This document shows positions 2,406-23,454 of a stretch of 64,000 bases of DNA, one piece after another; position 1 is the first letter of the stretch, and each line of letters starts with the position of its first letter. This DNA is from Kribbella kalugense. Lineage in GTDB: Bacteria > Actinomycetota > Actinomycetes > Propionibacteriales > Kribbellaceae. Location: contig NZ_SODF01000002.1 of assembly GCF_004365875.1 (NCBI RefSeq), positions 248,001-312,000 of the forward strand, given 5' to 3'. The translations under genes were made by a program, and so were the position numbers. The notes under the pieces are model-generated. The model saw only the letters and a list, made by a program, of their open reading frames with translations, had not been told where the DNA came from and did no database searches.

Positions 2406-3164
2406 TCAGAGTTCGCGCTCCAGGCGGGCCGCGACCTGCCGGTAACGGCTGACCGGTATCAGGTGAACGCCGTCGAAGGCGCCGGAGTCACGGATCTTCA
2501 GAATCTGCTCGCAGGCATGGTCGACACCGGCGTCGCGATCCCGCTCGACCGCGTCGATCAGGGCGTCCGGGATGGAGAGCTGAGGCAGGGCGGCCAGGTT
2601 GTGGGCCATCTTCGCGGAGGCGAGCACCATCACCCCGGCGTACACCGGGATGTCGAGATCCACCGACTCGCGCCAGCGGAGCAGCTCGTCGAGGTCGTAG
2701 CTGACCTGGACATAGAGGAAGTCCGCCTCGGCCTTCCAGCGCGGGACCGTGCGGAGACGGGTGGCCGCGCCGACCTGGAAGGGATTACAGCCCGGGTACG
2801 ACGTCTCGCGCGCCTGCTCGATCATCGTGCGGACCGTGAGCTGACTCGTCCGCGCCCCCTCGGCGGGGTCGTCTCCGTGGACGAAGAGGAACTGCTCGAC
2901 GCCGTACGCCGCTGCCGTCAGGAGATCCCGCCGGAAGCCGAGCAGGTTGCGGTCCCGCGAATTCAGGCAGGCGATCCCGCGGGAACCCATCGCCTGGACC
3001 TCGTTCGCCACCGCGACGCTCGACACCGTTGCCCGGCCGATGTGGTTGTCCGGAATCAGGAAGGCGTCCGCGATCGGGCTCATCACGCCGATCTGGTGCC
3101 GGACCTTCTTCAGATCGGGCCGCGTCGGCGGCTCCACCTCACACACCAGCTCGAATCCCCGCAT
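2406..3164 (-). CDS. Methylenetetrahydrofolate reductase-like protein (MetF family)
   Basis: The 252-residue protein has a MetF-type TIM-barrel pattern: an early CEVEPP strand, an AFLIPDNHIG segment, FLFVHGDDP, the PGCNPFQVGAAT stretch and a QVSYDLDELLRW segment. Such enzymes reduce 5,10-methylene- to 5-methyl-tetrahydrofolate or act on related C1 carriers. It is shorter than typical MetF (about 290 residues), like the short actinobacterial forms, so the exact substrate and cofactor are not certain. It lies 19 bases after the ECF sigma gene on the same strand and ahead of nuoI, with which it might share a transcript. No metE or metH gene is close by. Confidence 0.7.
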   Translation of the reverse strand: MRGFELVCEVEPPTRPDLKKVRHQIGVMSPIADAFLIPDNHIGRATVSSVAVANEVQAMGSRGIACLNSRDRNLLGFRRDLLTAAAYGVEQFLFVHGDDPAEGARTSQLTVRTMIEQARETSYPGCNPFQVGAATRLRTVPRWKAEADFLYVQVSYDLDELLRWRESVDLDIPVYAGVMVLASAKMAHNLAALPQLSIPDALIDAVERDRDAGVDHACEQILKIRDSGAFDGVHLIPVSRYRQVAARLEREL

Positions 3165-19519: not shown

Positions 19520-19598
19520 CGACACCCGCGCGTCCTCCGCACGCGCTCCCTTCGTCGCTCCGCTCCTCAACGCGCCCGCACCCCAGGCGGGGCGACCT

Positions 19599-19660
19599 AA
19601 GGGTTCGTTGCCTTTGGCATAGGGAGTTGTGCGGATGTGGGGGGACTCCTCAGGGGAGCA
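19599..19660 (+). promoter_or_regulatory. Leader element, copy 1, upstream of first tiny protein gene
   Basis: The stretch from 19616 to about 19660 resembles that at 20003-20050. Both run ATAGGGAG, then a TT, then GATGTG, GGGAC, CCTCAG and GAGCA in the same order. A GGGTTC word at 19601-19606 precedes ATAGGG by 12 bases and could be the upstream promoter box. The match continues outside coding sequence, so it is a duplicated promoter or 5' leader, not coding homology. Confidence 0.5.
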
Positions 19661-19694
19661 ATCTCTAGTCATCGACGAGCTCCCGGAGGAGACC

Positions 19695-19853
19695 ATGTTC
19701 ATGTACTCACCCGACTCGCTCCAGGCTGAGATCCGGTACCGGCAGGATCGGATCCGGCGCGACTTCCAGCGGCCGGCCTGGTTCCAGCGCAAGCCACGGC
19801 GGCAGGCTCCCCAGCCCTGTGCGCCCGAACTGCGTGCCCGTCCGGCGATGTGA
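19695..19853 (+). CDS. Tiny basic protein, member 1 of a tandem family
   Basis: A 52-residue open frame with a good ribosome binding site (GGAGGA, four bases before ATG). The central sequence SLQAEIRYRQDRIRRDF matches the two small genes downstream, sharing the pattern AE-x2-YR-x2-R-x2-RDF. The rest is basic and proline-rich. The shared motif, shared leader and proper ribosome binding sites make it a real gene. No known family is recognised; an amphipathic helix that binds a partner protein, RNA or DNA is plausible. It is followed by a strong hairpin at 19887-19922. Confidence 0.75.
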   Translation: MFMYSPDSLQAEIRYRQDRIRRDFQRPAWFQRKPRRQAPQPCAPELRARPAM

Positions 19854-19886
19854 CCGCTCGGGCACCACCGAGACCCCCTCCCCAAC

Positions 19887-19922
19887 CGGCGCGGCCGGCT
19901 CCCCTCCGAGCCGGTCGCGCCG
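19887..19922 (+). terminator. Terminator hairpin after the first tiny gene
   Basis: A 15-pair stem is formed by 19887-19901 and 19908-19922 with one G-U pair and a six-base loop (CCCTCC). It starts 33 bases after the stop of the first tiny protein gene and is followed by a weakly T-rich stretch. It separates that gene from the next leader copy. Confidence 0.75.
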
Positions 19923-19983
19923 CCTTCGTTTCCAGGGTCTTTTCAGACTCCTTAGAGGCGGAGTACGGCGTACCTGAGGCACC

Positions 19984-20050
19984 TAGGGACCGCTCGGGCC
20001 TGGGGATAGGGAGGAGTTCCGATGTGCGGGACCACCTCAGACGAGCAGAT
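19984..20050 (+). promoter_or_regulatory. Leader element, copy 2, upstream of second tiny protein gene
   Basis: Second copy of the element at 19599-19660. It has GGGACC (19986-19991), ATAGGGAG (20006-20013), CGATGTG, GGGAC, CCTCAG and GAGCAGAT in the same order, with small spacing changes. The spacing between the GGG word and ATAGGG is 14 bases here and 12 in copy 1. This suggests that the tiny genes duplicated together with their control region. Confidence 0.5.
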
Positions 20051-20097
20051 TGAGGGGTGTCGGCAGGAAGCCGGCCACCAACCAGGAGGAACACCAA

Positions 20098-20226
20098 ATG
20101 TTCACGAACGAAAGCGTCAAGGCAGAGGTCGACTACCGCAGGGAGCGCCTCAGCCGCGACTTCCGCCAGCACCGGAACACCCGGGGCCGCCGGACCATCA
20201 GCCACCTGTTCGGCCGGAAAGCCTGA
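20098..20226 (+). CDS. Tiny basic protein, member 2 of a tandem family
   Basis: A 42-residue open frame with a strong ribosome binding site (AGGAGGA, seven bases before ATG). It begins MFTNESVKAEVDYRRERL and continues SRDF, so it carries the family pattern AE-x2-YR-x2-R-x2-RDF near its start. The C-terminus is basic and ends HLFGRKA. It lies 13 bases before member 3, with which it is probably co-transcribed. It has no recognised family. The conserved MF start and spacing to the motif support the ATG chosen. Confidence 0.75.
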   Translation: MFTNESVKAEVDYRRERLSRDFRQHRNTRGRRTISHLFGRKA

Positions 20227-20239
20227 AGGGAGGGAAACC

Positions 20240-20410
20240 ATGTTCAACACTCCTCTGAGTCAAGACTTCATCAAGGCGGAGTCGGCCTACCGGCTGGAGC
20301 GGACCAAGCGTGACTTCCGGTCCGCGACCCGCCGGCAGCGCGCCGAGCGGGCCTCGCAGCCCGAGCCGCGGCACGCACGCCGCACGCTCCGACCCACCAC
20401 GGCCGCATGA
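20240..20410 (+). CDS. Tiny basic protein, member 3 of a tandem family
   Basis: A 56-residue open frame with a ribosome binding site (GGGAGGGA) before ATG 20240. It begins [20 protein letters not shown] and continues RTKRDF, matching its two neighbours in the pattern AE-x2-YR-x2-R-x2-RDF. The tail is very rich in arginine. It ends eleven bases before a strong terminator that separates it from the large LuxR-type regulator. As with members 1 and 2, no function is known; a small regulatory or nucleic-acid-binding peptide is a guess only. Confidence 0.75.
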
Positions 20411-20420
20411 CCGCGCCAAC

Positions 20421-20458
20421 CGCCGTCCCTGATCCGCTCCTCGGGATCAGGGACGGCG
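20421..20458 (+). terminator. Strong intrinsic terminator after tiny gene 3
   Basis: A perfect 15-pair stem (20421-20435 with 20444-20458, arms beginning CGCCGTCCC) encloses an eight-base loop and is followed at once by CTCTTTT. This is the clearest factor-independent terminator in the window. It closes the tiny-gene unit before the LuxR-type regulator. Confidence 0.9.
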
Positions 20459-20547
20459 CTCTTTTGGGCCGAACAACGAAGGCCGGGAGCAGAACTGACG
20501 CTCACCGGACGGGATGCCGTCGATTTGTGTCGGCGCCAGGGGCGAAG

Positions 20548-23454
20548 ATGGACGACGTGCCCTGGACTTCGACACCTCTCGTCGGCCGCTCGACCGAGAT
20601 GGCCGCCCTGCTGAGCGCCGTGGACGACGCGAAAACGCGCCGCGCCGGTGCTGTACTGCTGTCCGGTGACGCCGGCGTCGGCAAGACCCGGCTGCTGGAC
20701 GAGGTGGCCACCGGCGCGCACGAGCGCGGTTTCGGCGTGCTGGTCGGGCACTGCACCGACTTCGGCGACGCCGGCCTGCCGTACCAGCCGTTCTCCGAGA
20801 TCTTCGGCCGCCTGGCCGGCGACCGGCCGGATCTCGTCGACAGCGTGCTGACCAACTTCCCCGCGATCAGCCGGCTACTCCCCGCACACCGCCTGCTCAG
20901 CGCCCAGCCGGTGCCGCAGGAGGGCCAGCTCGACCGCGCTGCGCTGTTCGACGCCGTCCTCGGCGCGTTCACCGCGCTCTCCACCAGCGAGCCGCTCCTG
21001 GTGATCATTGAGGACGTCCACTGGGCCGACGACTCGACCCGGGACCTGATCGGCTTCCTGATCACCCGGCTGACCTCGCAGCGCCTGGCCCTCGTGGTCT
21101 CGTACCGCAGCGACGACCTGCACCGCCGGCATCCGCTCCGCCGCCCGATCGCCGAGTGGTCCCGCAACCCGCGCGTGCGTCGCGTCAACTTGCTCCCCCA
21201 CGACGCCGACGAGGCCCGCACCCTCCTGCACCTGCTGCTCACCGAGCCGCTGCCCGCAGTCGAGGAGCGCCGGATCCTGGAGCGTGCGGGCGGCAACGCG
21301 TTCTTCACCGAGGAGCTGGCCGCGGCGGCCTCGATGGGTGACGGCGACGTCGTGCCGCCCGATCTCGCCGACCTGCTCCTGGTCCGCCTCGACCCGCTGT
21401 CGGACGACGCGCGTCAGGTCGCCCGGGTGATCGCGGTCGCGGGTCGCCGGGTCCCGCACGACCTACTCACCGCCGTCGCCAACATGCCCGACCGCGAGCT
21501 CGACGACGCCCTGCGGGAGCTGATCGACGCCCACATCATCGACGTACCCACCAATGATCGGTACTACTTCCGCCACGCGCTGCTGGCCGAGGCCGTGTAC
21601 GACGACCTGCTGCCGGGTGAGCGGGTTCGGCAGCATGCGGCGTACGTGCAAGCGCTGGAGAACCAGACCGTCGCGGGCACCGCGGCCGAGCTGGCCGGGC
21701 ACGCCACCCGGTCGCATGACCTCGCTACCGCGTTCGAGGCCCGGGTCCGGGCCGGTCAGGAAGCGCTCTCGGTCGCGGCGCCGCAGGAGGCGCTGAAGCA
21801 CTACGAGATGGCGCTCGAGCTGTTCCCGAACGCGGCGCCGACGAGCACCGTCGACAAGACCTGGCTGATCGTCGACACAGCGATGGCGGCGACCCTGTCG
21901 TCACAGCATCTGCGCGCTCTCAAGCTGCTCCGGAAGGCGCTGGTCGATCTGCCGGCCGACGCACCGAAGCTGCAGCGGGCCGAGCTCCTGCTGCCGCTCG
22001 CGGACATCGCGCTGATCATCGACCAGGACAAGGAAGCCAGCGAGGCCATCTCGCAGGCGCTCAAACTGGTCAGCGACGAGCCCGCCAGTGTGTTCAAGGC
22101 GCAGGTCACCTCGTTGTACGCGCGGGTTTCCGACGCGCTCGGCCGGCCGATGGAGGCTGAGCGGTGGGCGCACCGAGCGCTCGAGATCGCCCGCGAGGCC
22201 GGTCAGGAGTCGGCCGCTAGCGACGCCGGGATCACGCTCGCCCAGCTCCGCCGCCGGGCCGGCGATCCGGAAACGGCCGCGAAGCAGCTCGAGGAAGCCG
22301 CCGTACGGGCGCAGCTCACCGGAGATGCCCCCGCCGAGGTGCGAAGCCGGTTCCTGCTCGGGTCCACGCACTACGAGCAGGGCGACCTGCTGAATGCGAA
22401 GGCCGCGTTGTCGTTCGCGGCGAAGCGGGCCGGTGAGCTCGGACGGCAGTGGGCTGTGTACGGGTTCGATGCGCGCCGGATGGTGGCGCTGACCCAGTTC
22501 ATGCTCGGCGAGTGGGACGAGGCGGCCGCGACGGCCGAGACCGACGCGATGACGCCCGCCGCTGCGGCCGCGGCGCTGCGTGCGGTGGAGTTCTCGGTGC
22601 GCGGCGGGCGGGGTGACACAGCGGTCGCGGAGGAGTTCGAGATGTCCCGGAAATGGTGGGACCTGGACATCATGCTGCCGCTCCTGGGATTGCAACCGGC
22701 CGTGGACGCGTACCGGCAGCTCGATCAGCCGGCCGAGGCGGAGAAGTTGATCACCGATGTGTCCGCGCTGTGTAGCAGTGTGTTCCAGACGGAGTGGTTC
22801 CTCGCGCAGATCCGGTTCGCCACGCTCGGCCTGCAGGTGCTGTGCCACCGGGCCGTCGGCGAGCCGTCAGCCGCCACGGAGCTGGTCTCGCGCGGCGCGG
22901 AGCTGGTCGCCCTCGGGCAGGCGACCGCGGAGAAGGGGATGCCGCCGGGACGGTTGATGGGCGTCGAAGGGCTCGCGTGGCTGGCCCGTCTGGAGGCGGA
23001 GTGGGAGCGGCTGCGGTGGCTGGCTGGGATCGACGCGCCGACGCCGGAGGAGCATGTCGCCGCCTGGGAGCGGGCGACGGACGCCTTCGGGTACGGGTAC
23101 GTCTTCGAGCAGGCCTGGTCACGGGTCCGGTTGTCGGCGGCGCTGCGTGCCGCCGGCCGGGTCGCCGAGGCGAACGAACAGACCGCGTTGGCCGCGGAGG
23201 TCGGTCGTGAGCTGCGGGCGAAGCCGCTGCTGGACGAGACCGGCGGCGTGGACACCGCGGCGAGTGCGCTGACGTCGCGGGAGACCGAAGTACTGCGGTT
23301 GCTCGCGGAGGGACGGACGAACCGGCAGCTGGCGCGCGAGCTGTACATCAGCGAGAAGACGGTCAGCGTGCACGTGTCGAACATCCTGGCGAAGCTCGGT
23401 GTCCGCTCCCGGACCGAGGCGGCCGCGGTCGCACGGCGTGACGGGCTGCTGTAG
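20548..23454 (+). CDS. Large ATPase LuxR-family (LAL/AAA) transcriptional regulator
   Basis: A 968-residue regulator. The N-terminal ATPase has Walker A GDAGVGKT (about residues 40-47) and a Walker B-like stretch ([13 protein letters not shown]) about 115 residues further on. A long helical, TPR-like middle follows. The C-terminus is a LuxR-type helix-turn-helix: [15 protein letters not shown], then [22 protein letters not shown]. This is the LAL/MalT-like architecture that switches on genes in response to a ligand. The ATG at 20548 is chosen because the sequence before it overlaps the terminator at 20421; GTG at 20527 is an alternative. Its position after the tiny-gene cluster makes that cluster a candidate target (inference). 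Confidence 0.92.

Follow-up and report, generated by a model that had tools for sequence, protein, structure and literature searches.

Tiny genes with a conserved promoter type beside a LuxR-type ATPase regulator in Kribbella and other actinobacteria

In Kribbella kalugense and in actinobacteria of several other families, tiny genes stand behind one conserved promoter type and beside a related gene for a large LuxR-type ATPase regulator (LAL). We consider it rather probable that the LAL drives this promoter and that the product, a helical, arginine-rich microprotein, is the effector of the circuit, both together forming a dedicated two-part module. Comparative sequence analysis shows the genes themselves, purifying selection acting on the cores of their coding sequences, the layout of the promoter and the conserved adjacency. 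From the adjacency and the promoter specificity we infer control by the LAL; the LAL would be an activator and the microprotein the output. The window, i.e. the whole stretch of DNA that was analysed, comprises 64,000 nucleotides of a genome of about 8.3 Mb, and its relevant features are compiled in Table 1.

Table 1. Features of the small-gene locus, with positions counted from the first nucleotide of the window.
Feature	Position	Strand	Basis
Candidate regulator site upstream of promoter 1, CCTAAGG	19596..19602	+	site class enriched upstream of such promoters
Promoter 1 (putative): TAGGG 19620-19624, GATGTG 19634-19639, CCTCAG 19648-19653, -10 CAATCT 19659-19664; predicted start A19671	19620..19664	+	alignments of 31 and 60 copies; R1 match 19617-19676
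P1 small protein, 52 aa, MFMYSPDSLQAEIRYRQDRIRRDF...	19695..19853	+	ORF, motif and pN/pS
Terminator-like hairpin 3' of P1	19887..19922	+	hairpin scan, 15 pairs
Candidate regulator sites upstream of promoter 2: CCTTAG 19950-19955, CCTGAGG 19973-19979, CCTAGG 19982-19987 (a variant of the counted site type)	19950..19987	+	conserved in Kribbella; site-class enrichment
Promoter 2 (putative): TAGGG 20007-20011, GATGTG 20021-20026, CCTCAG 20035-20040, -10 CAGATT 20046-20051; predicted start about 20058-20059	20007..20051	+	same alignments; R1 match 20001-20063
P2 small protein, 42 aa, MFTNESVKAEVDYRRERLSRDF...	20098..20226	+	38/38 genus genomes; predicted single helix
P3 small protein, 56 aa (26 protein letters not shown)	20240..20410	+	ORF, motif and pN/pS
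Terminator-like hairpin 3' of P3	20421..20458	+	hairpin scan, 15 pairs
LAL regulator, 968 aa: AAA_16 ATPase, TPR, C-terminal LuxR (GerE) HTH	20548..23454	+	Pfam matches

The first-pass annotation had proposed three tandem paralogous frames with strong ribosome binding sites, two terminators and a LuxR-type ATPase just downstream. This observation is confirmed, with the frames at the exact coordinates of Table 1, and the interpretation attached to it is partly supported. Each of P1, P2 and P3 carries AE-x2-YR-x2-R-x2-RDF, and they are preceded by the Shine-Dalgarno-like stretches GGAGGAG, AGGAGGA and GGGAGGG, respectively. P3 starts 13 nt past the stop of P2, and both are presumably carried by the same transcript. 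The two terminators were recovered as terminator-like hairpins; since the scan found three hairpins in 2 kb versus 1.0 +/- 0.9 in shuffles, their number alone is only mildly above chance. Upstream of the small genes lie an isochorismatase gene and a GntR regulator gene. Scanned without its first residue (967 of 968 aa), the downstream regulator matched PF13191 AAA_16 (5.7e-30, residues 9-182, above its cutoff), TPR_12 (5.5e-11) and PF00196 GerE (3e-21, residues 906-961 of 967), so that it combines the N-terminal AAA ATPase and the C-terminal LuxR/GerE helix-turn-helix that mark a LAL. Its longest ORF would begin at 20407 and overlaps the terminator-like hairpin, which makes 20407-20547 a trap for automatic annotation; the start given in Table 1 is the likely one. 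In Pfam and NCBIfam no fitting family was found for P1 to P3, the only match being a sub-cutoff one for P3 (E 0.21), in line with the earlier statement that no known family was recognised. The same holds at E<=0.1 for 21 diverse relatives of the small proteins, one of which was queried with an inexact sequence. The sole structural clue is the AlphaFold model of P2, which predicts with middling confidence (mean pLDDT 73) a single helix spanning residues 4-38.

Short as it is, P2 recurs throughout the genus, with matches in all 38 Kribbella genomes at E<=0.01, and extraction by the strict motif over 39 Kribbella loci retained P1 in 29, P2 in 38 and P3 in 35, these counts excluding loci without the strict motif, with some loci cut by contig ends or carrying variants. 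Around the motif, third codon positions are the most variable in all three genes, and pN/pS amounts to 0.48 for P1 (29 loci), 0.44 for P2 (38) and 0.47 for P3 (35); the LAL next door gives 0.22 over its first 290 codons. Over the whole genes the values are weaker (0.55, 0.90 and 0.65), and in whole P2 the third codon position is not the most variable one, because the arginine-rich tails change fast and align poorly; these tails thus appear to be under little constraint. On this codon-level evidence, the N-terminal coding cores of P1 to P3 are under purifying selection.

Homologues of the motif, whose presence in other actinobacteria had been named as a check on the initial observation, were found well beyond Kribbella. 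A 35-member small-protein profile matched 61 of 196 genomes of the order, i.e. 38/38 in the genus and 23/158 outside. Eighteen of these 23 extra-genus loci were retrieved for inspection, and 14 show one small ORF shortly before a LAL together with the same upstream element; 13 of them belong to genus g6 (taken as Nocardioides) and one to g17, and their LALs share 38-43% identity with that of the window. Starting from small-protein matches, a LAL was thus present in 39/39 Kribbella loci and in 14/18 loci outside the genus, and it was absent from the remaining four, all of family f4.

P3-like small ORFs without a LAL occur, around position 3000, in L088, L089, L090 and L092 (the f4 loci) and in L094, on a Kribbella contig (G035:C28). 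In L092 the P3-like ORF is followed by what we take, from their look, to be DGPF-like and ECF-sigma-like proteins. The LAL-less ORFs are preceded by recurring stretches like TGTCGAATC...CGTTCGTCG, and at the four f4 loci the usual ATG is ATT or ACT, which makes start or function uncertain. These loci recall pairs of ECF sigma factors and DGPF (YCII-like) proteins, whereas they differ from the locus of the window in the upstream sequence and in having no LAL. P3-like genes also stand beside other genes, so the association of the small protein with the LAL is not exclusive. The LAL could be a mere operon passenger.

The stretches upstream of P1 and P2 had been described as duplicated leader elements. 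They do align as claimed and are also conserved within Kribbella, sharing ATAGGG, GATGTG, CCTCAG and a GAGCA-like end; the duplication stands, whereas the idea of transcribed leaders is disfavoured, and judging from the aligned columns the elements are best read as two promoter copies. Counted from the predicted start, TAGGG lies at -51, GATGTG at -37 to -32 and CCTCAG at -23 to -18 within the spacer, followed by a -10 of the form [CG]ANNNT and a start CRTC. Positions -11A and -7T (columns 49 and 53) are invariant in 31/31 aligned copies while being absent from the search pattern described below, and they place the predicted start about 51 nt past TAGGG. Both recur in 60/60 copies of a second set (non-redundant at 80%), with a purine at +1 in 52/52 rows covering this position. 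Since R1, our sequence-only promoter model, had learned the two columns before this second set, the alignment of 31 copies is the cleaner evidence. By their sequence, -11A, -7T and +1R are the signature of a sigma-70-type promoter. Further support for the start assignment comes from seven loci (L122, L130, L135, L159, L174, L212, L220), whose small ORF opens right at the predicted start, as in a leaderless message: at +1 in one of them and at +2 in six. The scan for such positions flagged 11 of 79 stretches, some showing the same locus twice, and L212 and L220 came from a separately checked list. Outside the seven fall a GTG within promoter 2 of the window itself (L134, L148) and the starts in L155 and L172, all of them probably spurious. 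A first reading of TAGGG as the -10 was abandoned once columns -11A and -7T and the small ORFs opening at +1/+2 had come to light.

Conservation without gaps across about 55-60 nt would also be expected of a transcribed, riboswitch-like RNA leader, and GATGTG usually contains an ATG whose following codons are alike in many Kribbella rows, as in a uORF. We regard this explanation, disfavoured already, as highly improbable. The consensus fold of the 31 copies comprises 3 pairs (-2.1 kcal/mol), none changed on both sides, and an Rfam scan of the window returned no match at gathering scores, with only five sub-threshold ones (E 1.5 to 4.4) near the small genes. Structured RNA in the duplicated elements was rejected by this lack of a conserved covarying fold together with the Rfam result. 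An uORF or leader peptide in GATGTG was likewise rejected, as L078 has ACG in place of the ATG, which in L111 and L115 runs straight into a stop codon (TAG and TGA, respectively); besides, the -10/+1 signature sits downstream of this ATG. As a separate observation, a small hairpin occupies 20058-20075 of the window and the corresponding place in other Kribbella loci, just past the predicted start of the P2 message. Its variants (TGTCGGC-AGGGA-GCCGGCA, TGTCAGC-AAGGA-GCTGGCA) show seeming covariation (by eye) and an AAGGAG-like stretch at the loop, and in Nocardioides-type loci a hairpin lies immediately 5' of the Shine-Dalgarno stretch.

Searches with the promoter alone lead back to the same gene arrangement. 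Of 394 genomes in the class, 27 contain the pattern TAGGG-N9-GATG-N10-CCTCA, at 29 places altogether, compared with 1 place for the reversed pattern. A tiny ORF lies behind 22 of these places, two being the window's own, and 18 of the 20 foreign ones have a LAL downstream; the other seven places (L108, L113, L117, L118, L119, L132, L133) look like chance. In the own genome, allowing up to two mismatches gave 9 places versus 6 in the reversed control, with only the two known places convincing, and R1 at E<=0.01 gave two matches, both at the P1-P3 locus. Across the class, R1 matched 79/394 genomes and 45/138 genera at the same threshold, and its matches lean towards the search pattern because it was built partly from pattern-found copies. 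In 58 of the 70 R1 stretches inspected, covering matches down to 6.5e-4, a LAL follows downstream (44/50 and 14/20; among the 50 are the window itself and, in G203 and G062, two promoter pairs, each with one LAL in common). No LAL was found downstream in the other 12 (L145, L146, L164, L178, L182, L184, L264, L269, L275, L277, L278, L281), among which L182 and L264 run into the contig end, and L145 and L146 are the loci of L124 and L123, whose genomes hold a second copy with a LAL. In L123 and L124 (G095, G097), the promoter and a small ORF are located about 4 kb from the LAL-bearing copy, and the gene behind this extra promoter presumably encodes something resembling a LigD-type polymerase. 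A divergent Kribbella locus, L093 (G031), has three promoter copies and rearranged small genes, one of them unusually long.

The reverse approach, using the LAL protein alone, gathered 78 loci (502 kb searched): 22 Kribbella-type loci with LALs of 81-95% identity to that of the window, all but one titled Kribbella, and 56 others. At E<=0.05, R1 matched upstream of the LAL on the same strand in 22/22 Kribbella-type and 42/56 other loci and nowhere else in the 502 kb, neither on the other strand nor inside the LAL. In 14/56 other loci R1 gave no match at this threshold; in four of these (Kutzneria twice, Actinotalea and one Actinomycetales MAG) a related element is seen by eye together with a small AE-x2-YR ORF. 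Hand-written patterns of the promoter core recovered 21/22 and 17/56 loci (controls 0 and 0), or 20/22 and 17/56 in a stricter form and 21/22 and 33/56 in a wider one (controls 0 and 1/56), and missed many loci because their gap ranges were too narrow. In a tree of 54 LALs, promoter-bearing proteins come from Kribbellaceae, Jatrophihabitans, a Frankiaceae MAG, Kineococcus, Nocardioidaceae, Intrasporangiaceae and Streptosporangiaceae, and the promoter label changes 6 times, compared with 11.1 in shuffles. Two entries carry doubtful labels: L198, titled Streptomyces sp. SID13031, is a Kribbella-type locus (LAL identity 82%) and probably misnamed, and L235, from a MAG labelled Acidobacteria, has an actinobacterial-type LAL (46%) with two promoter copies, by contamination or transfer.

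In each of the 42 non-Kribbella R1-positive loci, a candidate small ORF fits between the promoter and the LAL gene. The mere presence of an ORF is weak evidence, since 40 of the 42 loci have an SD-led ORF of any kind, versus 24 for the opposite strand and 21.4 after shuffling. Far more specific is the motif, whose loose form is present in 27/42 candidates and absent in 15. Of these 27, two start without SD, and the 25 SD-led cases compare with 1 for the opposite strand and 1.2 after shuffling; the strict form gives 18 versus 0 and 0.1. The small proteins of Streptosporangiaceae have a different type of sequence (mostly M[GA]PE[LI]HYQ...), yet the promoter core is plainly visible there. Outside Kribbella, small ORF and LAL are close and on one strand, which, together with the variable tails, would also suit a leader peptide whose translation controls the LAL behind it while the peptide itself is functionless. 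This is quite improbable in view of the terminator-like hairpins that in Kribbella lie between P3 and the LAL and between P1 and P2, the extra copies without a LAL behind them, and the amino-acid selection on the N-terminal cores.

Upstream of these promoters, CCTNAG/CTNAGG sites are strongly enriched, with 120 in 93 stretches of 90 nt, among which Kribbella is well represented, versus 16 +/- 4 in shuffles. Relative to TAGGG they peak at -25/-24, -35/-34, -47 to -44 and -57, i.e. with a spacing of about one helical turn; at least one site occurs in 75/93 stretches and none in 18/93. Most Nocardioides-type loci have them paired as CTACCTCAG ... CTGAGGTAG. The combination CTGAGGTAG-N8-24-TAGGG occurs once each in 12/14 genomes, always at the small gene; this count alone proves nothing, since the reversed control gave 13 scattered matches. 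Repeated sites, a weak -10 and the lack of a good -35 suggest activation, and as the dedicated neighbour the LAL is the likely regulator. The nearly fixed spacing of the -51 to -18 block and the absence of a housekeeping-like -35 would also fit recognition of this block by another regulator or an alternative sigma factor. We hold this to be rather unlikely: GntR, the only other neighbour checked, has its gene in 23/39 Kribbella stretches (several of them short), as opposed to a LAL in 58/70 R1 stretches.

Under the preferred model, the LAL, a STAND-type ATPase with a LuxR DNA-binding domain, would respond to a signal by binding both the sites of the CCTNAGG type and the conserved block from -51 to -18. 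It would thereby switch on the tiny gene, whose promoter has a weak -10 and lacks a good -35. The product, acting as the effector of the circuit, would be a protein of about 36-80 aa in which a single N-terminal helix, in most cases containing E-x2-YR-x2-R, is followed by a tail that is rich in arginine and variable. Outside Kribbella the LAL usually lies shortly downstream on the same strand and is therefore probably part of the same transcript, so that it would feed back on itself. In Kribbella, duplication of the small gene has given two units, P1 and P2-P3. Each has a promoter and a terminator-like hairpin to itself, an arrangement that would uncouple the microprotein dose from LAL expression.

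Alternatively, the small protein may not be the output at all but a modulator of the LAL, namely a ligand or anti-activator encoded alongside this STAND regulator, to which it would bind and so provide feedback. STAND regulators such as MalT are kept in check by partner proteins; this precedent and the small gene usually adjoining one LAL speak for a modulator, which we consider a serious, though less probable, alternative. Three findings suit an independent product better: Kribbella has three copies of the small gene, served by two promoters of their own and by terminator-like hairpins; G095 and G097 each have a second copy, about 4 kb away from the one with the LAL; and P3-like genes exist without a LAL.

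Among known systems, AfsR-AfsS from Streptomyces comes nearest: there a regulator with STAND and TPR domains acts on the gene for the very small protein AfsS, which adjoins afsR. The present locus is comparable in pairing a large STAND ATPase/TPR regulator with a gene for a very small protein, where control by the regulator is our deduction, and, by sequence, in a neighbouring tiny gene under its own promoter. According to the accessible text of PMC10936776, the afsS promoter has a weak -10 CACTGT and a poor -35, with the AfsR box overlapping the -35/-10 spacer; CACTGT is also found in 14/29 Kribbella promoter-1 rows, while the spacer has here only the conserved CCTNAG. AfsR has an N-terminal SARP domain, whereas the regulator of the window has a C-terminal LuxR HTH, and no SARP or BTAD model was among the best 25 of 26 Pfam families for it; without this domain the protein is therefore not an AfsR, although it may work like one. 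In addition, the small gene precedes the regulator here. In its large size and its AAA ATPase and LuxR HTH the protein resembles the LAL regulators SCO0877 and SCO7173, as far as they are described in the accessible part of PMC3282765, which in contrast names no small-protein partner or promoter element. A literature search, covering few subscription papers, yielded no description of the module among the matches listed.

More tentatively, and in our estimate possible but short of probable, the locus may represent an undescribed actinobacteria-wide module of a STAND-LuxR regulator, one dedicated promoter type and a helical, arginine-rich microprotein as effector (e.g. binding RNA, the ribosome or RNA polymerase), whose promoter grammar is recognisable even where the microprotein has diverged past profile detection. 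Actinobacteria have many LAL regulators, and targets are known for few of them. In the present case a set of related LALs is accompanied by its probable target promoter together with a microprotein product, and sequence suffices to recognise the combination in several families. The promoter thereby provides a search handle for tiny genes of an unannotated class where protein similarity fails, and LAL function becomes testable in a single cloned locus.
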